Source of the DNA: Phytophthora sp. 'mugwort'
Taxonomy: Eukaryota > Oomycota > Peronosporomycetes > Peronosporales > Peronosporaceae
Reading direction: 5' to 3'
Assembly (NCBI GenBank): GCA_033558025.1
Contig: JAUCEF010000005.1
Location: 3,286,001 to 3,350,000, forward strand
DNA: 64,000 nucleotides
Shown here: piece after piece, positions 1 through 27,700 of the stretch
Numbering within the stretch: position 1 is the stretch's first letter
Layout: each line of letters opens with the position of its first letter
Notes under the pieces: model-generated
Seen by the model: only the letters and a program-made list of their open reading frames with translations
What the model was told of the DNA's origin: nothing
Databases searched by the model: none
Translations under genes and position numbers: made by a program

Positions 1-3000
1 TTACTGAAAAATGTGGTAAAACGAGCGACGGAATTAAATAATTCTGAGAAGGAGCGTCGTCGACGTACTCGACAAAGTTCCCTGCTCTCACCTGAAGTGG
101 ATGAGGGACGTAAAGAAGTTCAAGCTACAGAGGAAACGACTTTAAATGATGCAACGGCAGAAGCTATCGCCAGACGTGACGAAGAACGAATGGAACACCG
201 AAATGTTGTTCAAGCAATTCGAGAATGCGTAGGATCGATTGTACCATCCGCAAATCTCCACCTGATTAATTCCGTTCTACGGGACTTTAATCCACAGTCT
301 CTTGCCAGGGATTTTCGTGGAAGCTCCGTGTTAATACGTTCAAGAGTAGGCGAAGACGTACCCAAACGTAGTCTTGAAGATGAGGTGGAAAATTATGTTC
401 GTACACAGGAAACTGCGTGGAAGTGTTGGGGTGTCGAGTTTGGTTTGAAAACGGTGCAACTGCTGCAAACAATGAGAACTCATCGCGCGGTTGTATTATC
501 AGGCGAAAACCACACGGGCAAGACGAGTTTGTATGCTTCATTGTCTCGAGCACTTACCCAAATTTCAAAGAAAAAGGCTTCAGACCAAACTAATACACAG
601 AAACGGAACACTGGCGATGCAGACGGGGAACTGACGTTAGTAGCTCCAATACGCTGTGTTGTGGTGTGTCCTCGGGCTCTTCAACTAGGCCAACTACTCG
701 ATCTTGAAGCAGAAGAGCACTCCCGTAGTGTATTTTACAAGCTTGTACACGAAGCCAAGACGTTGTATAAGATAGATAAATGCACTCAAACGTGGCTTGT
801 TTTCGACGGAGATCTAGATGCTTTGTGGAGTGAACAACTGATGTATACCATCCAAGAGCTTCAGGATGATATCCCCGGGTATCGAAAAGGTGTGCGCCTT
901 TCTTCAGGAAAGTTTTTACTTGTTCCCGACTACGTTCGCGTGATAATGGAGACGACAACCCTCACAAACGCTTCACCGTCGTTTGTTACTCGTGTGGGCG
1001 CCGTCCACGTGAACGGATATCTTCGCAATATTGACAGCAAAGGGTGGGAAAATGTGTACAAAGTTTGGAAACTCGTCCGGAAGACGGAGTTCAAAGGGTA
1101 CGCGGAGTTGATTTTTGCCATTCTTGACACTGTAGTGTCGGAAACGGTCCCAGCGGCACTAGAATTTGTCGATGCGAATTTTCAAAACAGTATTCAAGCA
1201 GTGATGCGAATTCAGTGGACACTTGCGATGTTCTACAGTTCGTTAAAACAATTTTGGGAAAAATTTGGTGCTTTGACGAGTGACAAACAGCGTACTACTG
1301 CCGTTCAGTGCCTATTCTTGCAGGCTCTTGTATGGGGGGTGGGGAGTACAACGAATGCTCTGGAACGTCGACAATTTCATGTTTTCTTGTATGATTTAAT
1401 CCTACATGGCTCTAATCATGAGCAATCCCCGCTAAAACGGATGATAATGTTGTTTTTCCCGAATGGATTGCTGGTTGGGAGCCTTTCGAGTAACATTGGC
1501 GGGGACAAGAGCAACACAAGTTCAGGAATGACTAGTAATGCTGGATTAGCGTCACGAAAGCGAACGCTCTACGACTATGGCTTTTCGCTTGCCTTTGGCT
1601 CGAAATGGCTCCTCTGGACGGACTATTATCTCCGTTGGTCTCAAATGTTACTGGGAACTGCATCTAGTGGGTCAATCAATTCAGGATTCACGGCTGAAGC
1701 AAATTATCCTTTGAGCTCACAGCTAAACCACCTCGTGGTCCCCACAGGAGCGACTGCTTCAGCGATTTGTTTGTCTGGACAGTTGCTTCTTGCGAGCTAT
1801 CCTGCCATTCTTACCGGTCCAAAGGATTGCGGGAAGACAGTGTGTGGATCTGCGTGGCTTCTGTTAAGTGCTGCAGTTGCTCAGATACCAACAAGAGTAG
1901 AAATGGAATCGACTGGATCTGGATCATCAGAGGATGAATCAGAAATTGGAAATGCCAAAAAAGCTACAGATGAATCAACGAGCAATACGGTTCTTCCTTC
2001 AGTTGAAAAAATCTACGCAGGATTCTACACAGGAGCTAGCCACGTCTTACGCCAGTTTGAGCCTGCTCTGCAGCGAATACGTCATGAGCGCCAGCGAGAT
2101 TCAATAACTAGTCGTGCCACTCGAGCTCGAAACGACTCGAACGCCTCGTTGGAAACTCTGACTTCCACGGTGATTCCAGATTCCAAGCATACCGTGTATA
2201 TATTCCTCGATGACTTGCATTGCTTCGATCCGAATCGCAAAATGGACTCATCACTCGAAATGTTTCGGATGCTGGCGGAGTATCAGACTGTTGTTGACCC
2301 TGTTACTAGCTTGGTCACACCTTGCAACAAGTTTCTTCCATTCGCGACACTTGAACTGTCAAGTCAACACCGTCGAACTCAATCCGATGATCTAAGACGC
2401 CTTGTAGGCAGATTTATCCCCGTTGCACTGCAAGAGTTTTCAGATTCGGACCTCATCACTATCTGCGAAAGCTTTTCACTATCAAGTCTTAACCCTCTCT
2501 CGCAGTTATCTACAGGAGGAGCTTCAAGCGGAGCTCTCTTTAAAGAATACGACCAACTCCACTCGATGGTAGTCAAAGCGAGTCTGAAATTGTACCGACT
2601 TTTGACTTCACCCAACGACTTTGCAATCCTTTCGAAAGAATCGGCGTTCAATCCGATCAAATTACACTATAACTTTCGTGTAGCACATGTCTTTCAAGTC
2701 GTTCAAACGATCTGCTGTGAGTTACTACAACCAGCTCTATCACTTCCAGAGAAGTCGGCTCTAGCTCGATTATGGTGCCATGAAACTGCGCGTGTGTTCG
2801 GAGATAATATCACGGACCCGAACGAGTCGAGCGCTTTTCATCGTCGTACTATTGAAATTGCGCTGGCCACATTTGGTGTTGCAGATGTTGCCTTCTTCCC
2901 TGTGTATTTCGAGCCCCCAGCGCTTCAAAACCCGACAATCACCCAGCAATGGCTTGCGACTGAGTTGCATTTCTCATTTTTTGGGGACAGCACTACGAAT

Positions 3001-6000
3001 GGAGGTTATCGGAATGGCTACCACGAAGTCGAGATGTCAAAGCTTCAACTTGTCGTAGAACGAAGTTTAATGACAATGAATAATTCCGATTCCGACAACC
3101 CCGAATCAATGGAGATAATTATTTGTTCATTCGTTATCAAGCATGTCTTGCGCATCAGTCGACAGCTACGATTGGGGAGGAAAGCCGTGCTCTTACTGGG
3201 TGCAGCTGGAACAAAACTGGCCACGATCACACGTTTGGCGTGTTTGATGTGTAAGAAGGTACCAATCATGTCCCAAATACCAAAAATTTCTAATGAATTT
3301 GACAAGGAGCACGTTAGGGATCGTCGGAAATGGAATACAACGCTGAGAGCTGCAATGTTGAAATGTGTGCGAGCTCGCGATGCGCCCGTGGTTATACTAG
3401 TCAAAGACATTTATCTGCACCCAGAGGCATTTCCGTACCGCCTGATAGATCAATTTCTTGGTGGTCACAACTTGCCTGCTGAAGTCGTCGCCTTTGAGGA
3501 TCTTGATGACGAAATCCTTGCCATTTTGCGTGAAAATCTCCAAGCAGATACAGTCCCTCGTGCGCCAACACCTTCAGTATTTGGGTCAGAACAAGCGATA
3601 TTGGATCATTTCTTCCATTATGCCAGACAAAAGCTTCAACTCGTGCTTATTCTTGCCCCATCTTCAAACGAAATAGGAACTCAAAGCAAGAATTGGACAT
3701 CGATATTATGGCGATATCCGAATATTTGGAAATACTGCGACATTAACTACGCTGGATCATGGGCAACTAATGATTTGGTGACAATAGCGCAAAAATGCCT
3801 GACCCAGGCGTCCGTGACGGTAGATACGTCGTCTACTATGCAGCTCTCGGAGGCTGCTGTCCGGATGTATGAAACTACGTGCCGCTTTCTGGATGACCGA
3901 CGTCCTCAGGGACTCAAAACTGATGAAACTGGTGAAAATGATGACAAAAATGACAGTAGAAAAGAAGATGTGATCCCTACAATTTCATGGGATAACTATC
4001 TGTCTTCGCTTGTAAGGGTGGAGCCTAGCATGCTTATTGATCACTTAGGCTTATTCACGTCTCACTATGAGCAACTCCAGCGCTCGGTTGCTTCAAATGT
4101 GGCGCGCTTTAAAGCGGGTCTTGAATTCATGGACCAGACAGCCCAAATCTTAAGGACCGAACAGACTCAAGCGGAGTTGCTGCTTCCAGAAGTGCGGGAA
4201 AAGACGGAACTACGACGTCGAATGTCTGGAAGCTTGGAGAGAGAGAACATTGTGGCGGAGAAAGTCACAAGAGGGCTCGAGTTGGCAACGTCTTTGGTCA
4301 TCACTCAACGTGAACGACTTGCTACAGTTACTCAAGAATACTACGATTTAATTCAAGAATCTCGTGCACTTTTTCATGAAATGAGACATACACTACGAAT
4401 ATTTCATGAGGCTTTTCAAGACGAAGATGAAGATGACAATAAGAAAGACAAAACTGAAGATGAAAATGACGCTAACGGTGATAGAGAGGCCGATAAAGTG
4501 TACAATGCGGACAAAATTGCAGATAATACTAAACACAAACTTGACAGTGTCGAAGGGTTGGAAGCGGTAGCCAGACGACGACGTCGTAACCAAGTTTATC
4601 AATTTGCATCGCTGGATCGGATCCCGTCGTCCATTTATCAATTATCCGAGTGTCTTGGCGTGATACTTGGCATTGCACCAGTCGAAGGACATGACGAAAT
4701 GGACCCAGACGAGGTTATTATGGACTACTGGACAAATGTGGCCATCCAGGTCAAGACGGCTGCGTTCTGGCAGACACTGACGACGTTTGACGTGCCAAAG
4801 CATGCGACGGAAACGATGTTGACTGCATTGCTGCCGATTTGTCGGTCTCCTGACTTTGATCAAGAGTTGTTTGCGTCCGTCCACGAGGTTGCTGGCGTTT
4901 TGTGCGATTGGGTCCAGAAATGCGCGGCATTTGCCCGTGATTTCGTGCTAGCTGGGCCAAAACATGCTCAAGTGGAACGAGAACGAACCCTCTTGAAGCA
5001 AGCGGAGGCGCAAGTTGTCAAGAGCAAAATGGAGATATTTGACCAAAACGCATCGGCACAGAACGCTAGCACTCTTCGGGATGTATCCGAGCTAGAACGA
5101 CAGCGAGTGGACGCGAGGATGCAAGACACGACGTCGGTGCTACAAGTGACGAACGCTGCGTGGAAAGTACTAGTGTCAACACGCGCCAAGTGGAAGCTGA
5201 GGTATGAGGCGTATCGAATTTTTGCCGAGCATTGGGAGGCCGACCTGCTTCTAGCGACTGCAGTCGTGGCATATGCTTCATGCCTTAATGATAGAGCACG
5301 GGTAGAGCTTTATGGGCTTTGGACACAAGCTGTAGCACTACATTCATTAATCCCTTCGTCTCTGCGTCGCTCTCTGCACGAAGTTTTCCGGATTCGAGAC
5401 GTTGACCTCATTAAGATGACGCAGTTGAATGGATTGGCGAGTAATGATGAAAGTACGTTAGATAATGGCGTCATTGCATTGAATTGCTACCGATTGCCTC
5501 TCCTTGTTGACCCGTATGGGATTGCGACGGACTGGTTGAAAAAACAGTTAGGGACGGGAAGACTTTGTGTGGCCTCAGCTAACAAGACGACGACTAATGC
5601 TGGCGTCTGGAAAGTAGTGGAGACAAGTATTAAACAAGAGACGACCTTAATTCTTATGGATATCTGCAAGGATCGTTTACAGGGTCTGCACTCGTTCCTT
5701 GGGGCTAAGCGACGAGGGATTTTTAATGCGATTAATCACGATATGAGTATCAGGAATCGGACTAGTAGCGGTTATCACTGTTGGTGTTATCCTCCTGACG
5801 ATATAGAGGACAAGAAGGACTTAGAAGGAGCGAGTCACACTTTAGCAACAGCTAAAGTGGGCTCTTCTCATACAGAAGCTCGAGTATTTGAGTTCGGTAG
5901 TGACGTATGTAAAGTCTTTTTTGTTTGTACGACTAGTACGCCCGAGTGGATGACGGAGTATCTCAGTCAACTTACAGTCATTCCGTTCGAATTGACAGCT

Positions 6001-9000
6001 CCCTTTGTGGAGACACAAGCTCTGCAGAAACTGTTGGAGTCTCAAGGACGACTTCGAGAAGTGACAGCGATCCGAACACTGCAGCAAGAAGTGGTGGTTT
6101 GTGACGAACAACTCTATGGCCTCGAAGACGAGCTCTTGGATTTCTTCAGTACGGAACAGGCTGGTGTCGTTTACTCGGAGAACTCGAAAGCATTGCGGAT
6201 TGTTGCTAATCGAAGCGCTGTGAATACATTGCAGAGCGCTAAAGCCCAAGCACTGACAAAGATCCAAACCCATTGGGAGAGCATCGTGAGCTACGTTGCT
6301 GTGGCAAGGCGATGCGTGGATTCCGTGTGGGCTTGGCGTGAGTTTAAGTTTCTGACTCAAGAAGAGAATTCTTTTAGTAAAGAAAAGATAACGCTGAAGT
6401 GGGTCTGGCAATTATTGGTTCGTGCTGGTGCAAGGAGCAATACGAGCGACAATCATCTGGAAGAAGTCATGGCTCGGTTCACTAGTTCTCTGCAGTATTG
6501 TGTCCTTATGAATCTTCGTGATGAAAACCGTCTGCTCTTTAGATTTCTACTAGCATTTCGTATATGGCAGCGACGTATGGGAGAAAGCCTCGACGCGACT
6601 GAAATGCCGTTAAAAAATAGCTCTTCAAGTCACGTTTCCACGGGTATCGACTGCTTCGTTCGCTTGCTGTCGCTTGTTAGCTCCCAATCGGATCGAAATG
6701 TCTGCAGACCAACTCTGAAAAGTTTGCTTGCACTTCGTCCGACAAGCATGAAAGCTACTGTTTGGTCAGCGATCTGTTATCTAGCAGAAGTGTCAGAGGC
6801 TCTTCGACAGTTTATCTCGAGGATGGAGAGCTTAGCAAACGGTCCGAGTGTGTGGAAGGCAGTACTCGACTTAGGAATAAAGAGCTCCAGGGAATGGAAT
6901 GTGCCAGTTCCTCTTGACGCATTTATGCGCTTGTGCCTCGTGGTAGCGATTCATCCAACGAGGTTTTTGTGGGAGCTTGAAGACTTCGCTAGGCACGAGC
7001 TACAGCGACTTCATTCTGTACCACGATTCACATCGACCTTGAGCTCCGTTACCGTGACGGGAACAACGACATTATCGCTGCCTACAGTCGTAGCAGCCGC
7101 AGCCCATACGGCACAAAGTGAAGCCTCGGACCGACACAGCGTATTATTCTACATGTGGCAGTCATTCTCAAGTGCTAAGACGCCACTGATAGTATTCTGT
7201 CCCACAACGATTGATTTTGTCGATGCTGTAGCAAATGTATCAAGACGAGCTGGTGCAGCCATAAAGACGACCGACACGATCCAGTTGTTGCTTGCCGACG
7301 AAGCCTCGTTCAAGCAAATGATGCTGTCGGCGATGGAAAAAGGTCTATGGGTTGTACTCCCTAACTTGCATTCGTGTCCAGATCGGTTCGAACAATTGAA
7401 TAGCATCTATGAGTTACTCAACGATGAACAAACTCACTCTGACTTTCGTCTATGGATATCACTACGGAATGAATCTGTGCATGGTCTAGTGTCCCCGCTA
7501 GGGGAGTTAGAACCCACGTGGGTCCATTCAAGTACTATCCACAGACAATGGGGAACGGGTTTTCTTTCTTTGAAGCGAGGTTTGCACCATACGTTTACCA
7601 TTATAAAGGCAGAACTTGATGGATTTACATTTGCTAGCTCAAGAGCTTCTCCTACAGCCACACAGATCGAGACAGCTTTATTGAGTCATGACGACGAGAA
7701 ATGCATGAAACAACTTGGTGTGTTTCATGCTCTTGTATCCTGTCGCGACCAGTTGCCCTTTGCTCAGTGGAAAACGAGCCGAGAATTTGGTGATACGGAA
7801 TTGTGCGCAGCAGTTCGTTCGATGGTGAGTTTGAAGACAGAAGAGGCGACACATGTGAATGAACGTGAAAGTCCGCTAAGTGTACCAAGAATCGGAATGT
7901 GGAATCGAGTGACACTTGGTGGGGTCATCACAAACATCTACGCGTCGACGTTGAAGTCTAAGCAAGATCAGCTGCTGATTCAATGTTGTCTCGAATTCGT
8001 ATACAACGCGTGGCCCACAATGCAAGACGAGGTGAAACTTGACACCCCAACGAGGGTCGTAGCACTTACAACTGTACCAGAAGTCGTGTTCGCTATTGAA
8101 AAACTGGCTGTCATCCCGTGGGTAACAGTTGTAAATGAGATCCCGCTCTTCTGGATAAGTGAATCATGTGGTCCACCACTTGCGAGAGATTCGTTAGCTG
8201 TCGGTGGATCAAATTTCGAGGGCGTTATGTTGTGGGATCCCTACAACTTGCACAGAGACCGACAGAAGCAAATCATCACACAACTAGCGAAAATGGCAGC
8301 ACGCAGAGCATGCCACGTGAATTCGAATTTGTTGCCGACCAAATTGCCTTGTAGGAAGATGCTGCCACTACTGGAATTGCTGGCTTCATTTCGCAAGAAG
8401 ATCGATGACGTCATGCTCCCTGCATCAGGCGACAGTGATTATGAGTACCGAAAGCCGATCTCAGCTCTTATTAACCATGAACAACAGGCACTTGAAGAAA
8501 TCCGATCAGTAATTCGGAGGGATATTAAACGATTGGAATCGGTGTGTTACTGGATGGAAGCTAACGAAAAGAATCTCTCTTGACTAATTCATATGTTTGT
8601 GTTTGCACGAAATAGGTAAGTTTTCGAGCTCGCTCACTTGATCCGGCTACATGGCAAGTATTCGAAGATCTTCGAGATGACCGTGTCCCAACTCGGTGGC
8701 TCGCACTTTTGCGTCTGCCATCATCAAATATTGATTCAAGGGAAGGCTGGAACTTATACAAGTTTCAAGATCTCTTACTCGGTAGACTTAACGCTTTCTC
8801 CTCATGGAAAGAGCCTGGTGATGGCCCACACAAGCTACCGTTGGATAAATTCCTGGAGACGGAGGTACGTGTAGCTAGCCATTGTCATTTACTCCCTTAA
8901 CTTGATGAACGACCTGACCAGAGTATTTCTGTGTATGTTTTAATTTTATGTGAAAAAAAAAAGTATGTTCTTGAGGCTGTTCATCAGCACTTTGCCCGCA

Positions 9001-13863: not shown

Positions 13864-15552
13864 ATGGACTCAGTCTCGTCCGCGCCTTCGGGCACGTCTC
13901 CGCTGTTGAAGGCTTCCTCGACAGGCGACATCGACAATCACGAGTATATGAGTCTCTTCGGGGGCCCTTCAATGCCGCCACCCCCCCCGGCGCCGGTCAA
14001 ATCCGTGTCCACGGGCGTGATCGACGACCACGAAAGCTACGATCTATTCGGCGTCGGTCCGAGCGTCCCAGTGGCCGCTGTAGTCGCCAAGGAACCTGCA
14101 TTCATTGCCAGCACCGCGCCAGTGGAAGAGGGTGGCGTCGGCGAGGTGCCTGTGCAGCCTGCAGAGCCAGTGTCCCCTGCCAACTACGAACTTTTTCCGG
14201 CCTTAGCATCAACGGACAAACCAGCGAAAGTTGAGGCGGTAGATGGAGAGTCGGAGATGTCCCTGTCCTCCAAGGGGCTCAGTCACAGTGACAGCAGCAG
14301 CAGTGCCACGGGCACGATGAGCGGCAACGGATCATTCCACGGAGAGTTGCCCCGTGCCAACAGCAACGCCTTTCAGGTGGTTCCGGCAGATGAGCAACAG
14401 ACCGCTCCACCGTCGTACAAAATGGCGGGCAACGCGGTGGACATTGTGGCGGTGAAGAACATGGACGAGAAGTATCTTACGACGTCGTGGCACGTATCAT
14501 TCTCCTGGTCTCGCTTTCGATCGAGCTATGCTACCGGTGTGGGCGATATGGTGAGGATCTTGGTAAATGGCAAGGAAATGCCGACCAAGATGGAGCTCCA
14601 AGAACGGGGCCGCTGTACCTTCATCACGGGCGGCGTGATGATCCCACCTGCAGATTTGTGCTTTGCAGATCTGTCGGAAGAACACCCAAATCATGTGCGG
14701 TTCGAGCACTACCAAAAGTATACGAACACAGTCCGCTACGTGGATGCGAAGTTGCATTTGTGGGGACCGAACGAATCGGTGGTTGTTGTTGATCTGGATG
14801 GTACACTTACAATCAGTGACGTGGAGGGCCACATCCGCACCCTGCGCCTCGGCCAGTACGATTTCCTACATGCGGGAGCTTGCGACTTCTTCACCAAGTT
14901 GCACGAGCTGGGAATGCGAATCGTCTACCTCACTGCACGCCCACTTGACTGGGCTTCAGCATCACGAACCCACTTGGAGAACGCAATGCAGCAGTCAATC
15001 CCGCTCCCACCAGGAGTTCTCATCACAAACTCGACGGGTCTAACAGGTGCGCTGTTTACGGAGGTAGTGAACAAGACACCGCACGTGTTCAAGATTCAAG
15101 TGCTGAACGAGCTGCAGCTTACGCTCATTCACGCTGGTCGCGTGATCGAGCATCCCGTCTTTGTGGCAGGTTTTGGCAACCGCCCCACCGACATCGTGGC
15201 CTACGAGGAAGTAGGCATCGACCCCAGCCTCATCTTCATGCTAGACCCGTACTCGAACGTCAAGGCTGTGTCTGACCATCGCCTCTACGAATCGTACAGC
15301 GATCCGAATGCGCTGCTATGGATGCTGCCCAAGCTCAAGCACCGTGTGCCCATTGAAAAGGTCGGCCGCATCGACGATTACACTGTGCGCGAACTTGTTC
15401 TGGCTGAAGATCGTGAGCAGCTACGCATGGCTGAGTTGCAGGCTCGACGATTGCAGCAGGAGGAGTTCGAGCGTGCTCGTCAAGAAGCCGATCAAGCGCG
15501 ATACGCTTCCAACAACGCTCTTCGAGCCAGCAGCAGGAGCCTCTCGAGGTAA
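13864..15552 (+). CDS. LNS2-domain protein (lipin/phosphatidate-phosphatase-type HAD domain), 562 aa
   Basis: Single exon. The C-terminal half, about residues 300-490, is an LNS2 domain. It carries the HAD motif D310-L-D312-G-T followed by TISDVEGH, the YLTARP segment, the PHVFKIQ segment and the GFGNRPTD motif typical of lipins. The DxDGT residues needed for Mg2+-dependent dephosphorylation are present, so phosphatidate phosphatase activity is possible. The usual N-LIP domain at the extreme N-terminus of lipins is absent. Instead the first ~180 residues are low-complexity and contain a duplicated motif, STGDIDNHEYMSLFG and STGVIDDHESYDLFG, near residues 20-60. Residues ~200-290 form a beta-rich region with WHVSFSWSRFRS that I cannot place. 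The C-terminus is a charged helix (about 510-550). It could alternatively be a lipid-transfer/sensor protein like the Nir LNS2 proteins, but those usually lack the catalytic Asp pair. Confidence 0.88.
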   Translation: MDSVSSAPSGTSPLLKASSTGDIDNHEYMSLFGGPSMPPPPPAPVKSVSTGVIDDHESYDLFGVGPSVPVAAVVAKEPAFIASTAPVEEGGVGEVPVQPAEPVSPANYELFPALASTDKPAKVEAVDGESEMSLSSKGLSHSDSSSSATGTMSGNGSFHGELPRANSNAFQVVPADEQQTAPPSYKMAGNAVDIVAVKNMDEKYLTTSWHVSFSWSRFRSSYATGVGDMVRILVNGKEMPTKMELQERGRCTFITGGVMIPPADLCFADLSEEHPNHVRFEHYQKYTNTVRYVDAKLHLWGPNESVVVVDLDGTLTISDVEGHIRTLRLGQYDFLHAGACDFFTKLHELGMRIVYLTARPLDWASASRTHLENAMQQSIPLPPGVLITNSTGLTGALFTEVVNKTPHVFKIQVLNELQLTLIHAGRVIEHPVFVAGFGNRPTDIVAYEEVGIDPSLIFMLDPYSNVKAVSDHRLYESYSDPNALLWMLPKLKHRVPIEKVGRIDDYTVRELVLAEDREQLRMAELQARRLQQEEFERARQEADQARYASNNALRASSRSLSR

Positions 15553-15717
15553 ACTCACAGCGAATGACCGACCATCTCGTATTATATCACTTACGTACAG
15601 TTTTAATGGCTAGAGGGTATATCTGCTTTACATCATTAATCAAATCACAAACAAAACATTTAATCAGAACAAGCACGATTCCAGCCACATGTAATGGTAG
15701 TATTGTTATTCGCCATT

Positions 15718-16208
15718 ATGCCCGCTGCATTCCAGCGTGGCCCGCGTCGCTCTTGCCACATGCGATTCCGCGCCCTACGTGGGGGTACAAACTGGGCTAT
15801 TGGACGAGCGAGCTACGACGAAGCAAGAAAAAGTTGCCCCAATACCAGCTAGAGGACCTGAACGCGCTGGAATTCAGCTGGAACGCTCGTGAGACGCGAT
15901 GGAATCGCTACTTTGTTCCGGCGATGAAGAGATACCAGGAATTGCACGATACTTCAGAAGTGCCGCAAACCTTTGTAGTACCTTGTGACGACCCAGACTG
16001 GCCAGCCGAGCTGGGAGGGTATCGACTTGGGCAGAAGGTGAATAACTTGCGCTGTAGCGACCCCTTTTTCCCCGGAAATGTCGAGGGGCTGCAAGAGATA
16101 GAGCTGATCTACAAGAACTGGATGCTACTTGAAACACTGCACAACTTTGAAGGAAGCGATGATCTAGATGGAGAGGAAGAATCAAGTGACGAGGAACCAG
16201 AGCACTAG
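15718..16208 (+). pseudogene. Truncated helicase-associated (HA) domain gene at the left end of the inverted repeat
   Basis: Positions 15718-15777 start MPAAFQRGPRRSC, which resembles the start of the intact gene at 22259 (MAATFQRGPRRAC). Over the first 39 bases the two agree at 35 positions, and the left copy then lacks 15 bases. At 15778 the sequence jumps to a near-perfect copy of the 3' end of the intact gene (WGYKLGYWTSELRR onward) in a different reading frame from the ATG. About 430 bp of the intact gene are therefore missing and the frame is broken. An open frame entering from 15564 reads through the 3' part, but its upstream portion is not HA-like. I call it a pseudogene made of a diverged 5' stub joined to an identical 3' part. 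Confidence 0.8.
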
Positions 16209-16424
16209 CTTCGTCGCTAATACAAAGGACAACTTTTCAATTCGTGGTGCATTCAGTTATAAAATATCGTGACGTCCAGGCAATCAGCTTCACCTCTCTC
16301 TCTTTCTCCATCTTGTCACCACCAAAACGTCCCACCACTAAGCGTTCCTACTACCGCTCGGATTGCTCAGTCAGCTCGTTCCTTGGCATGCCAGGATGCT
16401 TTTTGCAGCGATGGGACATCAGCT

Positions 16425-17702
16425 TCAGATGCTCGAGCCAAGCTGCACAATTCGGGGGTAGCACGGCAACGTGAGGAAGTCCACCATGTCGTCGCCCGTC
16501 AGCACCTTGCCCATGATCTCTCCACCGAGCGCCCACTTGTTGCCCGGACCGGCGTTCAGCGACCGCTTGTTGACACACTCCTTCAAAATGTCCAGCACCA
16601 GCGCCTTCGTTACGGTCTTGCCCTCCACGGTCTTGCAGCTGTGGCGGATCCACTGCCACACCTGCGCACGCGAGATCTCGGCCGTAGCAGCGTCCTCCAT
16701 CTTGTTGTGGAGCGGGATGCACCCGCTGCCACGCAGCCACGCCTCCGTGTACACGAGCGACACATCAATGTTCTCCACCAGACCGTTGTACGTTATAGCA
16801 CCCGTCGGGGGCTCGATGAGCTGGGCCGCAGTGATGTCCTTGCCGGCCTCGGGGATGAACGAGATCTGGTTCGGGCCCGACATCTTGCTAAACGCGTCCA
16901 TGGCGATCTTGACGAGACCGGGGTGGGCCACCCACGTGCCGTCGTGACCCGCAGCCACCTCGCGCGATTTGTCTTCCGTGACGGCGGCCATGAACTTGTT
17001 GTTAAGCTCTGGGTCGTTCTTCACAGGGATCTGAGCCGCCATGCCACCCATAGCGTGGGCGCCACGACGGTGGCACGTGCGGACAAGCAGCTTCACGTAG
17101 GCAGCCATGAAAGGTGTGGTCATACCGACTGATGAGCGGTCCGGCACCACGAACTTGGGGTGGTTGCGGAACTTTTTGATGTATGAGAAGATGTAGTCCC
17201 AGCGGCCGCAGTTGAGGCCCGACGAGTGATTGCGCAGCTCGTACAGGATCTCGTCCATCTGAAAGACAGCCACGATGGTCTCCACCAGCACGGTGGCGCG
17301 GATGGAACCCTGCGGAATGCTCAGGTAGCCCTGGGCGGCCACGAACACATCATTCCACAGCTTTGCCTCCAAGTGATGCTCTAACTTGGGCAGGTAGAAG
17401 TACGGGCCGGAGCCACGAGCCAGCAGCTCGTGCGCGTTGTGAAAGAAGTAAAGGCCAAAGTCGAAGAGCGAGCCAGACATGATTTGGTTGTTCACGAGCA
17501 CGTGGGCTTCGTCCAGGTGCCAGCCGCGTGGGCGCACCAGCAGCGTGGCCACTTTGTCGTTGAGCGCGTACTTCTTGCCTGTCTGAGGGTGTGTGTACGA
17601 GATGGTCTTTCTGACGGCATCGAGGAGGTTGACCTGGCCGTCCACCTGGTTGAACCACGTGGGGGCCGTCGAGTCCTCGAAGTCGGCCATGTAACACTTA
17701 GA

Positions 17703-17735
<33 letters not shown>

Positions 17736-18032
17736 GTCCACGGGGCCCGTGATTTCGACGCGGCGGTCGGCCATATCGGCGGGGATGGATGCCACCTTCC
17801 AGTCGCCCTCGCGGATGTAGGCAGTCTCCGGAAGGAAGTCCGGCAGTACACCGGCGTCCAGTTCCTTCTGGCGTTGCCTGCGTGCGGCCAACAGCGCTTG
17901 GCGACGCGACTCGAACTGCTCGTGCAGGAAGGCGAGGAAGCGCAGCGCGTCTGGCGTGAGCACTCGTCTGAACGCGTCCGAGACGTGGCCCAGCACGCGG
18001 ACATTGGCGGCATTGACGTTCAGCTCCGACAT
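16425..18032 (-). CDS. Malate synthase, copy 1 (left arm)
   Basis: Condenses glyoxylate with acetyl-CoA to malate, the second committed step of the glyoxylate cycle, used when lipid or acetate is the carbon source. It is a single exon of 535 aa, the normal size for the eukaryotic/G-like A-type enzyme. The LVRPRGWH segment (around residue 165) and the family signature [15 protein letters not shown] followed by [15 protein letters not shown] (from about residue 302) are intact. I chose ATG at 18032 (MSELNVNA); the frame is open a little further upstream but without another ATG. The C-terminus is QLGSSI, not a peroxisomal SKL-type signal, and I see no N-terminal PTS2 match, so cytosolic location or another import route is possible. 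It is identical to copy 2 except for one residue (Val here, Met there). Confidence 0.96.
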
Positions 18033-18083
18033 GACAGCTTCTGTGTGGTGGACTTTTGACAGATGCTTCTGCTCGCTTGAGGG

Positions 18084-18098
18084 CAAATTTCGGAATGA
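18084..18098 (-). promoter_or_regulatory. Oomycete-type initiator/FPR of malate synthase copy 1
   Basis: Reads TCATTCCGAAATTTG on the minus strand, 52 bases before the ATG. It matches the known oomycete core promoter pattern (TCATTYY followed by AWTTT). The assignment rests on motif and spacing only. Confidence 0.6.
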
Positions 18099-18658
18099 CT
18101 ATGCGGGGCGATCCTGAGGGGAAGCGCCGCACCCACTCTCGAACCCGACGTGACCCCACTCGTAGACGCAATGTGCTTCAACGTCGATTTTAGTGCAATT
18201 TCAGCCAATAAAGACCCGTGAGCGACGTCGCCAGCGTCACGGACTCCGGTAGCTCGGCACATACAAAATACAAGTCAGAGGTCGAAACATCATCACTTGC
18301 TATTGCGTTTAACTTCCAGATGTCCTTGCGAGCCACTGTAATACCGAAGCAGCGGTGATCGTGGTGATTGGACGGGCCCTTTCTCTGCCAAGTGATGCAT
18401 GTGAAAACACCCGTGAGGTTATGTGAGGAACCTCATCGAAGAGGCAGGGCGGCGGCCGAGTAATTGAACGCTTTAAAATTCAGGAGCCCCAAGTTTCTGA
18501 AGCAGAACTCGGGTTTTTTCCGGTGCGGCGGTCGTCGACGCGACTAACAGTAAACAAGAGGCCAAACTAAAAAATTTCTACGTGTTTGTTGCTCCAAGCT
18601 AGGCTGTGCTCTTGCTGCCTCGATACTCAAAAGATTTCGCGTCTTGATTGAGGACCTT

Positions 18659-18885
18659 TTCGAAATGGACAAGCTCTTCAGTGCTATGCTGCAGCCTGAG
18701 CCAGCTACCACTGCCGACAGGTCTCGTGCGAAGAGCAGCAGTCCGAACGCTGCCATGGCAGCAGAAGGAAATGTCAAGAAATCGAGACTCACGCGGGAGC
18801 AGATATTTGGACAGGTACTAAAAGGGTTAGTGGGGAGAGTGCAGGCTGAGCTCAAAAAGCAGGGGGAGCTGAGTCAGACTCGATG
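18659..18885. other. 227-bp unique spacer between the two inverted arms
   Basis: This is the only sequence in the 6-kb block that is not duplicated. It lies between the two divergent malate synthase upstream regions (about 626 bp each) and is almost entirely filled by a small open frame. Confidence 0.9.
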
Positions 18886-18886
18886 A
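18665..18886 (+). CDS. Small ORF filling the inverted-repeat spacer, 73 aa, possibly a truncated gene
   Basis: Starts MDKLFSAMLQPEP and ends GELSQTR with TGA at 18884-18886, so the stop codon uses the first base of the right arm. Its ATG lies 6 bp inside the left-arm boundary. The composition is protein-like: Ala/Ser-rich, then a basic-amphipathic helix (LTREQIFGQVLKGLVGRVQAE). I do not recognise it. It may be the first exon of a gene once transcribed divergently from malate synthase whose remainder was lost when the inverted copy formed. It could also be non-coding chance. Confidence 0.4.
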   Translation: MDKLFSAMLQPEPATTADRSRAKSSSPNAAMAAEGNVKKSRLTREQIFGQVLKGLVGRVQAELKKQGELSQTR

Positions 18887-19445
18887 AGGTCCTCAATCAA
18901 GACGCGAAATCTTTTGAGTATCGAGGCAGCAAGAGCACAGCCTAGCTTGGAGCAACAAACACGTAGAAATTTTTTAGTTTGGCCTCTTGTTTACTGTTAG
19001 TCGCGTCGACGACCGCCGCACCGGAAAAAACCCGAGTTCTGCTTCAGAAACTTGGGGCTCCTGAATTTTAAAGCGTTCAATTACTCGGCCGCCGCCCTGC
19101 CTCTTCGATGAGGTTCCTCACATAACCTCACGGGTGTTTTCACATGCATCACTTGGCAGAGAAAGGGCCCGTCCAATCACCACGATCACCGCTGCTTCGG
19201 TATTACAGTGGCTCGCAAGGACATCTGGAAGTTAAACGCAATAGCAAGTGATGATGTTTCGACCTCTGACTTGTATTTTGTATGTGCCGAGCTACCGGAG
19301 TCCGTGACGCTGGCGACGTCGCTCACGGGTCTTTATTGGCTGAAATTGCACTAAAATCGACGTTGAAGCACATTGCGTCTACGAGTGGGGTCACGTCGGG
19401 TTCGAGAGTGGGTGCGGCGCTTCCCCTCAGGATCGCCCCGCATAG

Positions 19446-19460
19446 TCATTCCGAAATTTG
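19446..19460 (+). promoter_or_regulatory. Oomycete-type initiator/FPR of malate synthase copy 2
   Basis: TCATTCCGAAATTTG, 52 bases before the ATG at 19512; the exact mirror of the copy-1 site. Both copies therefore keep an intact putative core promoter. Confidence 0.6.
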
Positions 19461-19511
19461 CCCTCAAGCGAGCAGAAGCATCTGTCAAAAGTCCACCACA
19501 CAGAAGCTGTC

Positions 19512-19808
19512 ATGTCGGAGCTGAACGTCAATGCCGCCAATGTCCGCGTGCTGGGCCACGTCTCGGACGCGTTCAGACGAGTGCTCACGCCAGACGCGCT
19601 GCGCTTCCTCGCCTTCCTGCACGAGCAGTTCGAGTCGCGTCGCCAAGCGCTGTTGGCCGCACGCAGGCAACGCCAGAAGGAACTGGACGCCGGTGTACTG
19701 CCGGACTTCCTTCCGGAGACTGCCTACATCCGCGAGGGCGACTGGAAGGTGGCATCCATCCCCGCCGATATGGCCGACCGCCGCGTCGAAATCACGGGCC
19801 CCGTGGAC

Positions 19809-19841
<33 letters not shown>

Positions 19842-21119
19842 TCTAAGTGTTACATGGCCGACTTCGAGGACTCGACGGCCCCCACGTGGTTCAACCAGGT
19901 GGACGGCCAGGTCAACCTCCTCGATGCCGTCAGAAAGACCATCTCGTACACACACCCTCAGACAGGCAAGAAGTACGCGCTCAACGACAAAGTGGCCACG
20001 CTGCTGGTGCGCCCACGCGGCTGGCACCTGGACGAAGCCCACGTGCTCATGAACAACCAAATCATGTCTGGCTCGCTCTTCGACTTTGGCCTTTACTTCT
20101 TTCACAACGCGCACGAGCTGCTGGCTCGTGGCTCCGGCCCGTACTTCTACCTGCCCAAGTTAGAGCATCACTTGGAGGCAAAGCTGTGGAATGATGTGTT
20201 CGTGGCCGCCCAGGGCTACCTGAGCATTCCGCAGGGTTCCATCCGCGCCACCGTGCTGGTGGAGACCATCGTGGCTGTCTTTCAGATGGACGAGATCCTG
20301 TACGAGCTGCGCAATCACTCGTCGGGCCTCAACTGCGGCCGCTGGGACTACATCTTCTCATACATCAAAAAGTTCCGCAACCACCCCAAGTTCGTGGTGC
20401 CGGACCGCTCATCAGTCGGTATGACCACACCTTTCATGGCTGCCTACGTGAAGCTGCTTGTCCGCACGTGCCACCGTCGTGGCGCCCACGCTATGGGTGG
20501 CATGGCGGCTCAGATCCCTGTGAAGAACGACCCAGAGCTTAACAACAAGTTCATGGCCGCCGTCACGGAAGACAAATCGCGCGAGGTGGCTGCGGGTCAC
20601 GACGGCACGTGGGTGGCCCACCCCGGTCTCGTCAAGATCGCCATGGACGCGTTTAGCAAGATGTCGGGCCCGAACCAGATCTCGTTCATCCCCGAGGCCG
20701 GCAAGGACATCACTGCGGCCCAGCTCATCGAGCCCCCGACGGGTGCTATAACGTACAACGGTCTGGTGGAGAACATTGATGTGTCGCTCGTGTACACGGA
20801 GGCGTGGCTGCGTGGCAGCGGGTGCATCCCGCTCCACAACAAGATGGAGGACGCTGCTACGGCCGAGATCTCGCGTGCGCAGGTGTGGCAGTGGATCCGC
20901 CACAGCTGCAAGACCGTGGAGGGCAAGACCGTAACGAAGGCGCTGGTGCTGGACATTTTGAAGGAGTGTGTCAACAAGCGGTCGCTGAACGCCGGTCCGG
21001 GCAACAAGTGGGCGCTCGGTGGAGAGATCATGGGCAAGGTGCTGACGGGCGACGACATGGTGGACTTCCTCACGTTGCCGTGCTACCCCCGAATTGTGCA
21101 GCTTGGCTCGAGCATCTGA
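19512..21119 (+). CDS. Malate synthase, copy 2 (right arm)
   Basis: Same 535-residue enzyme as copy 1, transcribed in the opposite direction from its own identical upstream region. All family motifs are intact (RPRGWH, the GMTTPF signature, [11 protein letters not shown]). The only coding difference I see is ATG (Met) at 20049-20051 where copy 1 has GTG (Val). Because the upstream 626 bp are also identical, the two copies should be co-regulated, which would roughly double dosage if both are real and expressed. The 3' neighbour is the convergent HA-domain gene, whose stop is 217 bp away. Confidence 0.96.
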
Positions 21120-21335
21120 AGCTGATGTCCCATCGCTGCAAAAAGCATCCTGGCATGCCAAGGAACGAGCTGACTGAGCAATCCGAGCGGTAGTAGGAAC
21201 GCTTAGTGGTGGGACGTTTTGGTGGTGACAAGATGGAGAAAGAGAGAGAGGTGAAGCTGATTGCCTGGACGTCACGATATTTTATAACTGAATGCACCAC
21301 GAATTGAAAAGTTGTCCTTTGTATTAGCGACGAAG

Positions 21336-22259
21336 CTAGTGCTCTGGTTCCTCGTCACTTGATTCTTCCTCTCCATCTAGATCATCGCTTCCTTCAAAGT
21401 TGTGCAGTGTTTCAAGTAGCATCCAGTTCTTGTAGATCAGCTCTATCTCTTGCAGCCCCTCGACATTTCCGGGGAAAAAGGGGTCGCTACAGCGCAAGTT
21501 ATTCACCTTCTGCCCAAGTCGATACCCTCCCAGCTCGGCTGGCCAGTCTGGGTCGTCACAAGGTACTACAAAGGTTTGCGGCACTTCTGAAGTATCGTGC
21601 AATTCCTGGTATCTCTTCATCGCCGGAACAAAGTAGCGATTCCATCGCGTCTCACGAGCGTTCCAGCTGAATTCCAGCGCGTTCAGGTCCTCTAGCTGGT
21701 ATTGGGGCAACTTTTTCTTGCTTCGTCGTAGCTCGCTCGTCCAATAGCCCAGTTTGTACCCCCACGCTGAGCGCGGCCACGCGTCGTCTCCTTCAGGCAC
21801 CGTGAACGAACTTGGAATCAGTAGGTCGCCGTAGATCGACCTGTAGGTCCGCATTGCTGCCACCGTCACCTCCTCCCACAGGAAGCGTTTCCAGTCCTCC
21901 ACGTCCGGTAGTCCAAGTCCCCGAAGCTGTACTCGAACCTCACCCAAGCTCTGACGCATCGTTGGTTTTTTGGCCGACGCCCACGCCTTTAAAAATCTTG
22001 AGATTGTTGTGCCCAGCTTCATACCCTGCAGCTCTTGGGGCCACTGCTGAGCCTCAGGACTCGGAGAGCTCGGCACCGTGAAGCGCAACGGGACGGCGCA
22101 GTGGCCGTGCAGACGCTGGAAAGTCTGCAACGCAGGCACCAGCAACTCGAAATGACGATGCTGATGCACCGCTGACTGGGTACTTTGACGACGGAGCTGC
22201 ATGTGGGCGCTTAATAACCAGCAAGCGCGACGCGGGCCGCGCTGGAATGTAGCGGCCAT
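21336..22259 (-). CDS. Helicase-associated (HA) domain protein, 307 aa, intact
   Basis: Contains about three to four copies of the HA repeat, recognisable by an aromatic/Leu helix, HGH or similar, VPxxFxVP, a WP pair and G-x-x-LG (for example RLHGHCAVPLRFTVP, SIYGDLLIPSSFTVPEGD and WPAELGGYRLGQKV). The C-terminus is acidic (GSDDLDGEEESSDEEPEH). Such proteins without a helicase core are common in stramenopiles and their role is unknown. The N-terminus, MAATFQRGPRRACWLLSA followed by several Arg and no acidic residues, could be a mitochondrial presequence. The inverted-repeat boundary at 21766 falls inside this gene, and the left copy at 15718-16208 is broken. Confidence 0.8.
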   Translation of the reverse strand: MAATFQRGPRRACWLLSAHMQLRRQSTQSAVHQHRHFELLVPALQTFQRLHGHCAVPLRFTVPSSPSPEAQQWPQELQGMKLGTTISRFLKAWASAKKPTMRQSLGEVRVQLRGLGLPDVEDWKRFLWEEVTVAAMRTYRSIYGDLLIPSSFTVPEGDDAWPRSAWGYKLGYWTSELRRSKKKLPQYQLEDLNALEFSWNARETRWNRYFVPAMKRYQELHDTSEVPQTFVVPCDDPDWPAELGGYRLGQKVNNLRCSDPFFPGNVEGLQEIELIYKNWMLLETLHNFEGSDDLDGEEESSDEEPEH

Positions 22260-22392
22260 GGATGAATGCCACTTACTTTATAGTAATCTGCAGCAATTAA
22301 GGAAGTCACAACAAAATTATATAACTCCATACATTTATAGTGTCATTTTTGTGATTAGGTTGGCCCTAGACGCCTTATTAGAGCGATTTTAA

Positions 22393-22403
22393 CCCCTTAC
22401 TTC
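22393..22403 (+). repeat. PiggyBac left terminal inverted repeat
   Basis: CCCCTTACTTC directly after TTAA at 22389-22392. After this the left side continues TCGGGCTTATTTATG, similar to but not identical with the right-end CCTTATGTTG. Confidence 0.85.
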
Positions 22404-22534
22404 TCGGGCTTATTTATGAGGGTATATTTTACTCCATCCCATAAATGTCTATATAAGAATTTGTATAGTTCTTCGTATAAGTCCGAATTTTTGAGGTGCG
22501 GGCTCGGGGACGATATAGGATGCACTGGTCAGTG

Positions 22535-22560
22535 CACAGACGGACGGAATCCAACGGCCA
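22535..22560 (+). repeat. Left inverted repeat of pogo-like element
   Basis: Pairs with 24252-24277 in inverted orientation, 25 of 26 bases identical. Confidence 0.88.
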
Positions 22561-22685
22561 GACACCGTAACGGCCACTCAGCAATATTAGCCAATCACAT
22601 TCTAATATCTAGTAGGATTTTGACCAACCCAGAGTTGGCCATAATTGCGTATTTCTGAGGTTGTCAGTCAGTAATCCCCCTCCTC

Positions 22686-24119
22686 ATGGAGTCGGAGCCC
22701 GATACCGCTGAGGCATCCATATCGGTATTGGTCCATGCTGTAGCAGCTTCTATAGCACGTCGTAAGCACTATTCTTTCCGGCTCAAGCGGGAGATTCTGA
22801 CAAAATCGGAGGGAATGAGTGAGCGTGCGGCTGCAAAAGTGCATGGCGTTCCTCGGCATACTTTGTGCGATTGGAGAGCTAACAAGGAGAACATATTTGC
22901 ATTTGATGGGTCGGAAAAACGTTAGCGCGGATACCGGGGTGCCAGAGATAACCCCCTTCTCCCCTCAGCTCGTCACCTACATGAAGGACTAACGACGATC
23001 CGATCAAGCGCTAACAACTACCAGGATGGCACAGTTGGCACAGTTTATCCGTGATAACCACGGCGGTTGGCTAGCGGACTATACTAGCAATAAGAAAAGT
23101 GGCGACGTGGTGTACGAATCTCCTCTCCGACTCCTGCGCCGCTTTTCGTATCGTCATGACTTCCTCCAACGGACTCACCATGGCTTATAGGTACAATTCT
23201 GATTTGGTACTTTGACAATTTGGTTTGTTTATACTGATTCGTGTGTCATTTATTTTGGCGTTGGCTCGTCTAGGAAAAACTAGACGACCTAATAACTATA
23301 CAGCAGGCTTTCAGCAAAACGTTTAAGGATTCCTACGGTTTAATGCCGCCCAAGACGATCTTTGATGTTGACGAAACTGTGGTGTACTATGACACCTTTC
23401 CCTCAAGAATTCTGTGCGAGCGAGGTAAGCCCTCAAACATTACAACCTCTCAAAAGCATTCAGCGAGGATGACAGTCGTGTGCTCTGTTCGCGGTGACGG
23501 TACGTTAAAATCATGTAGTATGAAATGCGCTAAAACTAACTTGTTTTTATTTTAGGTAAGAAAACTTCCGCTGTATTCATTGTGCGTGGGGAACCAGATG
23601 GCACGATTGCCACAGAGGAAGTGCCCACGTACCCAAAAGGTAATACGATGTGTCGCTTTTCTAGCTATATCTTCTATCTTGCTAATTTAGTTATGCGGTA
23701 CTGTATAGGACACATGTATGCGGTGCAGCCAAAAGCTTGGATAGATGGACAAGTCTGGTGTCAGTTTCTTCGCACCTTGCTGCCGCCGCAAATCCAGGAT
23801 CCATTCGTGCTCCTCGTCGACAATCTCGATTGCCACGTCTCGGAGGGGTAAAGAAGAGATCGTTGCAGCAAAGCTGTTTTCATTTTTGCAGCCTTTACCT
23901 AAAACTTCAACATTGGTGTGCCAGCCCTTAGACGTGGGCGTTATGGGGCCATTGAAAGCCAAGTTGAAGTCAGCATGGCTGCTAGAAGATACCAGAGCGG
24001 GGGCAACAACAAAAGACGAACATCTAGCTACCATTAAGCGTACTATCCGCGTGTGGGAGGAGATTAGCGAAGATACTGTACAGAAGGCATTTAACAAGGC
24101 CCTCAACGTTGAGTTCTAA
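22686..24119 (+). pseudogene. Pogo/jerky-type DDE transposase, inactivated
   Basis: Residues from 22686 include a psq-type helix-turn-helix (MSERAAAKVHGVPRHTLCDW). Downstream the frames hold LVTYMKD, then a TAA at 22990-22992 inside a conserved block, then VYESPLRLLRRFSYRHDF. A probable intron with acceptor near 23271 is followed by the first catalytic Asp region (TIFDVDETVVYYD), the second (FVLLVDNLDCH near 23815) and CQPLDVGVMGPLKAKL near 23925-23970, which is typical of the third catalytic region. The last stretch ends NKALNVEF at 24119. The in-frame stop and frame shifts between segments mark it as dead unless several non-obvious introns remove them. Confidence 0.75.
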
Positions 24120-24251
24120 ATAAAAAATACGCTTCCCGTTTCTTGCCCTAATTCTTAGCTCGCTCGTCCGGATTACTTAGGTGACTTTCTTTGCAGTTGT
24201 TTCAGCTAATCAAATCTGACTATGATTTGTATGCGTCTGTCAGATGCCATG

Positions 24252-24277
24252 TGACCGTTGGATTCCGTCCGTCTGTG
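24252..24277 (-). repeat. Right inverted repeat of pogo-like element
   Basis: Complement of 22535-22560 with one mismatch; about 130 bp after the transposase stop. Confidence 0.88.
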
Positions 24278-24526
24278 TATAGCAGACGCATCCAACATAT
24301 AGCGCTATTATGTAGACGAATGACTTCATACGATCACTTAAGTTGGCTAAATCTACATAATAAATGTCATGTTTATCGAGCCGCCCTTTTTTGTATCATT
24401 GCACACGCCCAGCAGAATGAATAGACGGTATTACAGAGGAAAAAAAAGAAAGTTTCATTTGATTACTTGCTGCATAGCTCCCCTTTGCACGCATAAAACT
24501 GCAAAAATCTACGCATCATCTGCCAT

Positions 24527-24645
24527 TCCTCCTTCATCACCGGCACCATCGCCGTCACCACCACAACCACCATCATCACCACCTTCATCACCACCGTCGC
24601 CGCCACCGTCGCCACCACCGTCGCCGCCACCGTCGTCTTCGCTTC
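24527..24645 (+). repeat. Low-complexity CCA/CCG/TCA trinucleotide tract
   Basis: About 120 bp of degenerate ACC/ATC/GCC triplets (translated as a Pro/Ser run in one frame). It lies in the 3' flank of the PiggyBac transposase. Probably slippage-prone and non-coding. Confidence 0.75.
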
Positions 24646-24777
24646 TTGCCCGGCCGCGATGCTGGTGGTCGCTCACGCGTCTTGTGGCCGTCTAGAACTG
24701 AAGGGGGAATTTCGTTCCCGTTCTTCCACTCGAGGTGCCAAATACGAAAGCAGGTATCACTGACATCACGTCCTACG

Positions 24778-27700
24778 TTACACAGGTATTTTCTGCAGCA
24801 ACACAGTACACATTAGACCGACTCTCATCATCCATAGCTCACTAGCGACGCATCGTCGGTTTCCGTTAGAGCATTCGGGGCAGAAATACTTCGTGAATTT
24901 CCTAGGCTGGACTTTGTACAGGGCGCACACCTTGCACGAGCGTTGGCGCCGCTTCACACCTTGCTCTCCCTCAACAGTGTCAGGATTCTCCACGCGACAA
25001 TGGCTTCCGTCAACGAGAGCATCCACTTCAGCCGGTGGTGCTGATCTCTCTCTCGCAGGCGACGCCGCTGTCCGCTCCCGCGCGGTAGTTGCTTCCTGCC
25101 AACAAAAAGAACATGTCCAACGTAAGTTAGACCTTATGTTAGATGTCTGTGCCACACACTCGGCGCTTATGTTGTCCATTCAACATTGCACGTACTTCGA
25201 TAGCTTTGAACGCCTCGGCGAGTCGATTGCAAATATCTGCTCCATCAGCTCTTCAAAAAAACGCGAAGTGCTTGGGCGGCCGATTGTTACTCACCTTCCT
25301 GTGGTAGCAGAACACGATGAAATCGTTGACGAGCGCCATATCGAACAGCCCAAAAACCAAAGGCCGATAGTACTTGCGCGACTTGTAGGACAACTGGACG
25401 CTGTTTGTTTTTGTACCGCTGCATCCGGAGCTGATCATGGACATCGACCCCGCCATCCAGCGGTGGTAATCGCGGGCCAGCTCCGGAGCAGGTAGGGGTT
25501 GCATTTCGCCATGGCCTCGGCGCACTACAATACATGCAAACAATCCGTTAGAGAAGCCATTTAAAAATACGAAAACCAAATAGAGTACTAACTGGTTGTG
25601 TAATCGACAACATGTGGACGGGGTTTCGGTCCATCCACATGGACGCCGTAAGCTACGGGAACTGTTTGTTCTGCGCCAGCTTAGTGGCGCCCTGGGGTGG
25701 CACCATAACCTTTCGTTTGTTCACGGGCTTCGTAGTGATCACGCCCTGCGCGTATCCCGCCCGATCCGTCTGAATCGTGCCCGTAAGATTTATGCGTATA
25801 TGTAGCAGCTCCACTGCCAGTTTCACGGAAGTGTAAAACCGGTCAGTGATAACCAGACGCCATGGCGACGGTAAGCGGGGAAGAAGAGTATTGATGTTCC
25901 GAAGAATCGCAGCCTCTCCAGAATTGTTGTCCGCTGGAACCGGTGTGCGAAGATGCGTCTTGGCTCCACAATAAATTTCGACTCTACAGCGCAACATCAA
26001 AACAAACAGTTCGCGTAAGCTAGTATTATGATGACTCATCAGTGAATGGATGCTTATAAAGTTGGATGTCAGGCAACATAAGCACTTAGGCCAAAACAAT
26101 TGGAGACAAGCCGGAACTTGCCACCCCAATCTTGTGCACACACCTTATGCAATACGCGGTCGTCACACAGGCCGCGACGAATACCTTCGTGCCCCATCAA
26201 TGCGGTTTCTTTGTTAAACTGCGCATAGGATTGAATTGAGAGCGTGATGGAAGCGTTGCTTCCTCGAAGCTGATGACTGGTGAGACCTGTACCCGCGAGC
26301 AAATGTGCGCTGTAGACACGTCCACAACAGGCCTAATTTTCCATGCACGGTCTTGGAGGGCTTGCGGGGACTTGTTGTTAGAAAAGTGCAGGTACACCAT
26401 GATGTGGAAGAACCTGTGCCTTTCCATGAATAGCCCCAAAACCGGTTAGCAGGGAGAGCACCCACCTTCCAATTTGCAGCGATGCCTTTTCGAATCGGGC
26501 CGAGCATTCTCGCGATGAGGAGAGCCATGCCGTGCAACACCTCATACGCTTCAATGTCCGGTACGCCAGCCAAGAGGAGGCTAATATTCCCCAGATCCTC
26601 GACTTCGCCACCTCTTCGGCGCTGTTGAGACCGAATTGTACGCGCTCGCAGAGGGATGGACTGCGCATGGTACCGGTTACTTACCACAGCAATTTGAGAC
26701 CACAGCTTCGGGGGCATGAAGTAAAAAAAGCAAAGCGAGTGGGTCGTCGGCCACGCGCAGCACGCTGTCGCTTGGACCGTATGGACCATCATATAAACCT
26801 TCTTAGGTCGGGTCCGGGCCAAACTTGGAGGGGTCTATGCAGACAGACAAAAATGAAACATTAGGTTAGTCCTTATGTTACACATAACCTTCATGCTTGA
26901 TTGTTATGTTGGATGCGATCAACATACCGTACTCCCAGCCAGTTTGGCGCATCACTGAGACCATTCGAGGATCCTTGGCGGCTGACGACCAGAGGGAATC
27001 AGGTAGCTCCTCCATATCTTGGTCAAGCTCCTCATCGGTAAAGTCACCGATGTTCCAATCTCCCTCCCAGCTGTATCCTCCTTCTCATCTTCTTCGTCTT
27101 CTGGTTCCTCATGAAGGTCCGGGTCCTCGTCTGAGTTTAGTCCGGTGCATTGATCAGCTCCCTGATCCATCCAATTAGGGTCCTCGTCCACAACACAGAT
27201 GCGAATGGAATGGCGTCACGAACGCTTTCGGTCTGAACTCCGTCGCTTGACAGCTAAACATGTTCAGAGCATACAATGTATGTTAGACTTATGTTGGTTA
27301 CATCGTAGACAGCATACCTCCTTATGATGGACAATATCAACACAGCGTATCTCGTCGTCATCCTCTTCATCATTTTGGAAGACACGGCGGTGCCGTTTTC
27401 TTGATGGTCCTTGCGCTGCCCGTTCACGCTGCGGCGTGCTGGAAGTCAGTGGTAGACGAGGAGAAACAAGAGACTGCACAGGTGTTGGAGCCTCCCCACT
27501 TGCAGTGGAGGCCACAATATCAGCCACGACTTCTACAACAGCGACCGGGGCTGTTGTGATCGCCAAGCAGCCCTGCGTCGCCTCTTCCGTGTCCTTAGCT
27601 CCCCTCACAGCGTCCTTCGGATCCACCTTGGTGCCCTTGGCTGCCGCCGTGTCCTTGGGTGCGGCCGCGGTGTCCTTGGCCGCCTTCTTCTTCTGCTGCC

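Follow-up and report, generated by a model that had tools for sequence, protein, structure and literature searches.

Several described systems share features with the inverted duplication reported here, which in the assembly doubles a malate synthase gene in Phytophthora sp. 'mugwort'. In yeast, fold-back inversions and inverted duplications occur at double-strand breaks, and the cases shown proceed through dicentric intermediates, starting at the break and reaching towards the opposite end of the chromosome (PMC10622511). Insertions templated from distant loci have also been reported at yeast breaks (PMC11724301). Gene-converting palindromes are described on sex chromosomes, for example the W of willow (PMC7023750), and according to a review a palindrome endangers genome stability more when its arms are more alike and its spacer is shorter or missing (PMC7999016). 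Within one open-access library, our searches for oomycete palindromes or inverted duplications, for malate synthase with inversion or the glyoxylate cycle in Phytophthora, and for gene conversion with inverted repeats and gene duplication in Phytophthora, gave no title or abstract opening, among those listed, on a locus of this kind. An effector-evolution study in P. ramorum (PMC3820680) reportedly mentions gene conversion.

The malate synthase palindrome resembles each of these systems in part. As in the yeast fold-back inversions (PMC10622511), a segment appears to have been placed next to itself as a reversed copy, with a short inverted repeat as the possible priming site. Unlike those inversions, the palindrome is interstitial, with arms of 2.9 kb, flanks that are unrelated and inserted DNA at the joint. 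That insert is like the distant templated insertions of PMC11724301, in that a short piece of another locus was copied into a repair joint; unlike them, it is central to a gene-bearing palindrome, and in an oomycete. With the willow W palindromes (PMC7023750), it has in common near-identical gene-bearing arms, a non-repeated spacer, and identity that is broken by insertions or deletions. However, it is far smaller than these, carries a housekeeping enzyme and shows no sex-chromosome sign, and conversion is argued here from one 39-bp comparison rather than from a comparison of species.

Results

Architecture of the inverted repeat

The window analysed is a stretch of 64,000 nucleotides (C5:3286001-3350000), and genome searches covered the assembly to which it belongs (86.26 Mb, 154 contigs). 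Position-by-position comparison of the window identified two opposed arms of 2881 bp each, separated by a 227-bp spacer (Table 1). The arms are identical at 2880 of 2881 positions, the sole mismatch lying at 17495/20049, and the preliminary description of arms, spacer and mismatch was exact to the base. A repeat search recovered the same pair extended outward by 10 bp (15768-18658 and 18886-21776), the added bases matching weakly. A 2.88-kb match of this quality is not a product of chance, and long, near-identical, opposed arms around a spacer are what characterizes a palindromic segmental duplication. It was the sole inverted repeat of at least 100 bp detected by megablast within each of five pieces of the same genome (100,303 bases in total). 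Searching the genome with window positions 18600-21900 returned the two arms, the inner 59 bp of the arm again, and one match to the spacer.

Each arm contains the 3′ part of a gene with a helicase-associated (HA) domain, a complete malate synthase frame, and the 626 bp 5′ of its start. The identity extends to non-coding DNA, namely the 626 bp 5′ of malate synthase and the stretch that separates it from the HA gene, so that purifying selection alone is an insufficient explanation for it.

Table 1. Features of the palindrome and its surroundings, in window coordinates.
Feature	Position	Strand	Basis and remarks
Lipin (LNS2) gene, left neighbour	13864..15552	+	ORF; PF08235 E 1e-46, PF04571 E 6e-9
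Left HA gene 5′ remnant, outside arm	15718..15777	+	15718-15756 vs 22259-22221, 35/39
Left arm	15778..18658	.	Position-by-position comparison
Left HA gene 3′ part, broken	15778..16208	+	PF03457 E 5.5e-10; preceded by a net loss of 433 nt
Left malate synthase, 535 aa, Val180 (relatives' conserved state)	16425..18032	-	PF01274 above cut-off; residue comparison
Spacer	18659..18885	.	2 nt + 209-bp C7 coding copy + 16 nt with GAGTC-A-GACTC
Templated insertion	18661..18869	+	208/209 to C7:3296971-3297179, mismatch at 18789
Right arm, probable derived copy	18886..21766	.	Comparison; gene order
Right malate synthase, 535 aa, Met180 (derived)	19512..21119	+	PF20656, PF01274, PF20659 above cut-off
Right HA-domain gene, intact, 307 aa	21336..22259	-	PF03457 E 2e-19; arm end at 21766 falls inside
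Repeated element, probably DNA transposon	22530..24279	.	26-bp terminal inverted repeats

Two complete malate synthase copies

Both malate synthase frames are complete and uninterrupted over 535 codons, as had been proposed, and their products differ at one residue (V180 on the left, M180 on the right). N-terminal, TIM-barrel and C-terminal domains (PF20656, PF01274 and PF20659, respectively) scored above cut-off in the right copy, and PF01274 did so in both. In a protein search, the enzyme matched a protein of Phytophthora fragariae at 98% identity. Among the first 33 of 120 listed homologues, residue 180 was Val in 30, Ile in three and Met in none; counting Ile with Val as the conserved type, the left Val180 agrees with 33/33 of the homologues examined, and the mismatch at 17495/20049 is therefore a change in the right copy.

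The 626 bp 5′ of the ATG are the same in both copies and lie within the arms. The preliminary description had considered both 5′ regions complete, which holds for these 626 bp but not beyond them, where each gene meets the inserted scrap and then the promoter of the other copy. With the same proximal promoter and a single Val/Met difference, both copies look able to function. Separately from the palindromic pair, a second, diverged malate synthase-like gene was present in pieces on another contig (L010, C7:2703924-2704475), with matches to PF01274 (E 9e-22) and to MS_C (E 1.7e-16) in adjacent frames that are probably exons.

An HA-domain gene intact on the right and broken on the left

The HA-domain gene in the arms was absent from the preliminary description. 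Single homologues in Phytophthora species align with most of the right protein at 68-76% identity (76% at best, in P. pseudosyringae, and 72% in P. sojae, a value that led us to reject P. sojae as the source organism), and the next best match in its own genome is 36% identical. The left copy begins at 15718, 165 bp past lipin, and keeps 60 bp before a net loss of 433 nt relative to the right copy. This remnant is out of frame with the portion of the gene in the arm, and a 214-codon frame (15564-16208), from an unrelated upstream ATG at 15564, runs open through the left 3′ part; it is in this frame that the left PF03457 match was scored.

The first 39 bp of the left remnant match the right copy at 35/39 positions (window self-blast, E 3e-7), compared with 2880/2881 in the arms (Fisher p 1.3e-7). 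Homology was not used past 39 bp, where the best match was 13/21 (chance 0.17). The step in identity is sharp and falls at the net 433-nt loss, where perfect arm identity begins. Within the right protein, the arm half departs at 5/61 sites that are invariant in 12 other chosen sequences and the other half at 2/54 such sites, a comparison too weak to use.

Unrelated outer flanks

The lipin gene to the left is 89% identical at best to other lipins (P. pseudosyringae and P. capsici, protein search), and its own genome holds one full lipin plus one weak match of 31% on C2. A genome search found no lipin match on the right side of the palindrome. Between the outer flanks, self-blast of the window detected only the 39-bp HA gene end as an inverted match, and the left intergenic DNA (15553-15717) did not align with DNA upstream of the right HA gene (score 25, shuffled mean 31). 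The genome holds a single copy of the left outer flank, and the DNA beside the right HA gene is made up of repeats present elsewhere. Specifically, two short repeated pieces adjoin that gene (22279-22380 and 22389-22533), and the element that follows, a probable DNA transposon, has several further full-length copies in the genome at about 91-92% identity. A further repeat to the right (24284-26498) is 88% identical to C18. Elsewhere in the window, diverged internal repeats of 69-73% identity (41655-43723) were present in a 1157-codon frame without a Pfam match (40931-44404), and a dynein heavy chain frame (13-8583) is found to the left, some 7 kb away from the palindrome.

The spacer contains a copy of coding DNA from C7

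All but 18 nt of the spacer is a copy of DNA on C7, where the source sits in an open frame of 152 codons (L009:4302-4760) without its own Pfam match. About 290 bp upstream of this frame, on the same strand, is a 659-codon frame that matches families of dynein axonemal assembly factor 5 (PF25757 E 1.3e-41, PF24573 E 3.7e-22), and the two frames may be exons of one gene. The donor thus lies elsewhere in the genome, remains in place and is still open, as expected of a templated insertion. In this region (C7:3294533-3297259) the source thus adjoins a dynein assembly factor-like frame, and the nearness of a dynein heavy chain frame to the palindrome is probably coincidence. We also considered the spacer as a gene in its own right, and rejected this: its 73-codon frame (18665-18886) has no Pfam match and is a fragment of the C7 frame.

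By eye, the joints of the insert as they now stand had no clear shared bases. The 5-bp inverted repeat in the last 16 nt of the spacer, expected by chance in 2.4% of random 16-mers, gives a hint of a fold-back origin. The spacer differs from its source at 1/209 positions, significantly fewer than in the HA remnant (p 0.0024) and indistinguishable from the 1/2881 of the arms (p 0.13).

Gene order in relatives

Gene order was read by eye from contig entries and locus tags in three protein searches, with shared contigs deduced from these entries. Lipin and HA genes were on one contig in P. pseudosyringae, P. lilii, P. fragariaefolia, P. cinnamomi, P. oleae, P. megakarya and P. boehmeriae; their tags are consecutive in P. 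oleae (V7S43_001178/001179), and in P. cactorum they are predicted as one fused protein. In [Pythium] brassicae they were on separate contigs. Malate synthase shared a contig with lipin or HA in P. fragariae, P. nicotianae, P. cactorum, Bremia lactucae, Hyaloperonospora brassicae, Pythium oligandrum (consecutive tags, 013891/013892), Lagenidium giganteum (tags 22 apart) and Thraustotheca clavata. It was on a separate contig from lipin and HA in Saprolegnia parasitica, Achlya hypogyna and the four Aphanomyces species that list both proteins. The Pythium insidiosum entries come from different assemblies, so contig sharing is uninformative there.

From contig sharing and tags, we infer that the ancestral order was lipin, HA, malate synthase, as it is on the left. 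With this order on the left, the duplicate that arose later is probably the right arm.

Origin of the palindrome

The explanation we prefer, to which we give about an even chance, is that the inverted duplication is real and older than its arms appear, gene conversion having homogenised them. The original locus would have read lipin and HA gene in one direction, facing malate synthase in the other. A break just upstream of malate synthase would then have been repaired by copying, in reverse beside the original, from the break point through malate synthase to the whole HA gene. The C7 scrap may have entered the centre at the duplication, or at a later break and repair of the palindrome centre. 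The original left HA gene would subsequently have decayed, losing a net 433 nt and diverging in its 5′ part, whereas its counterpart on the right escaped damage; arm-to-arm conversion would have kept, or recently made, the 2.88 kb from spacer to deletion identical, halting at the end of homology. Our leaning comes from the HA remnant, which is far more diverged than the arms, and an identity step located at the deletion is the trace expected of conversion between older duplicates, which favours this order of events. The age argument uses this single 39-bp segment, and the nearly unmutated spacer argues against an older duplication. Since the spacer is less diverged than the HA remnant, either the centre postdates the duplication or the end of the HA gene changed in some other way.

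The latter possibility leads to a different history, in which the inverted copy and the C7 insert arose in one and the same recent break-repair by template switching, whether primed by fold-back or copied at microhomologies. Here the arms would be identical through youth, and the damaged left HA end would either stem from error-prone repair in that event or represent an allele already diverged and deleted beforehand. The statistical likeness of spacer and arms fits such an event, as does the inverted repeat at the joint; an insert at an inverted joint is also the expected trace of template switching, and distant templated as well as inverted insertions are documented in yeast (PMC11724301). 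However, the event itself leaves unexplained both the four mismatches in 39 bp of HA remnant and the coincidence of the deletion end with the identity boundary. We regard it as a serious contender, though one we would not bet on. A history that joins identical arms, young spacer and diverged HA 5′ end in one account begins instead with a pre-existing inverted HA pair around malate synthase, through which a recent malate synthase duplication recombined, leaving the HA 5′ ends as old paralogues. This needs a close inverted HA paralogue beforehand, but nothing nearer than the 36% match is found in the genome, and the matches in relatives fit one HA gene near lipin; we consider it very improbable.

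Near-perfect arms are also typical of assembly errors, in which reads that are chimeric or folded, or a head-to-head joining of two haplotypes, would disguise a single malate synthase per haplotype. Mirrored flanks would be expected of a fold-back, as from a missed adapter, and of a haplotype merge, but self-comparison showed no inverted match beyond the HA gene, and such an artefact is unlikely because the outer flanks are unmirrored; a haplotype merge with mirrored flanks was rejected on these alignments. Moreover, the single full lipin, the single occurrence of the left outer flank, the dispersed repeats that make up the DNA beside the right HA gene and the match of the centre to another contig all speak against an artefact, which would take two independent false joins. 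Overall, we judge it improbable. The preliminary description had named a very recent event, ongoing conversion and an artefact, and this was the right set: flanks, lipin and the C7 centre weaken a simple artefact, the HA remnant leans towards conversion, and a single recent event keeps the lesser standing given above.

Taking the preferred reading further, we tentatively suggest, as a possibility that we would rate below an even chance, a self-maintaining palindrome in the nuclear genome of an oomycete. An older duplication of a central metabolic gene would have its arms continually converted, as in sex-chromosome palindromes, and its fragile centre would have broken and been mended with a gene fragment taken from a different chromosome, a patch that would stabilise the palindrome by making its centre asymmetric.

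Implications

The locus is a readable case of mirror-image gene doubling in a Phytophthora genome, with a repair scar that can be traced to its source. Beyond the preliminary description, it has yielded the C7 origin of the spacer, the probable ancestral order on the left, the Val/Met difference at residue 180, and the left HA remnant with its deletion. Should conversion between the arms be at work, palindromes can stay intact away from sex chromosomes too, and the spacer together with the decayed HA copy would offer a yardstick for timing it here. For the organism, the duplicated glyoxylate-cycle enzyme could alter dosage, with extra malate synthase possible from the two copies, or, if transcription crosses the palindrome centre, may yield hairpin RNA that silences malate synthase.
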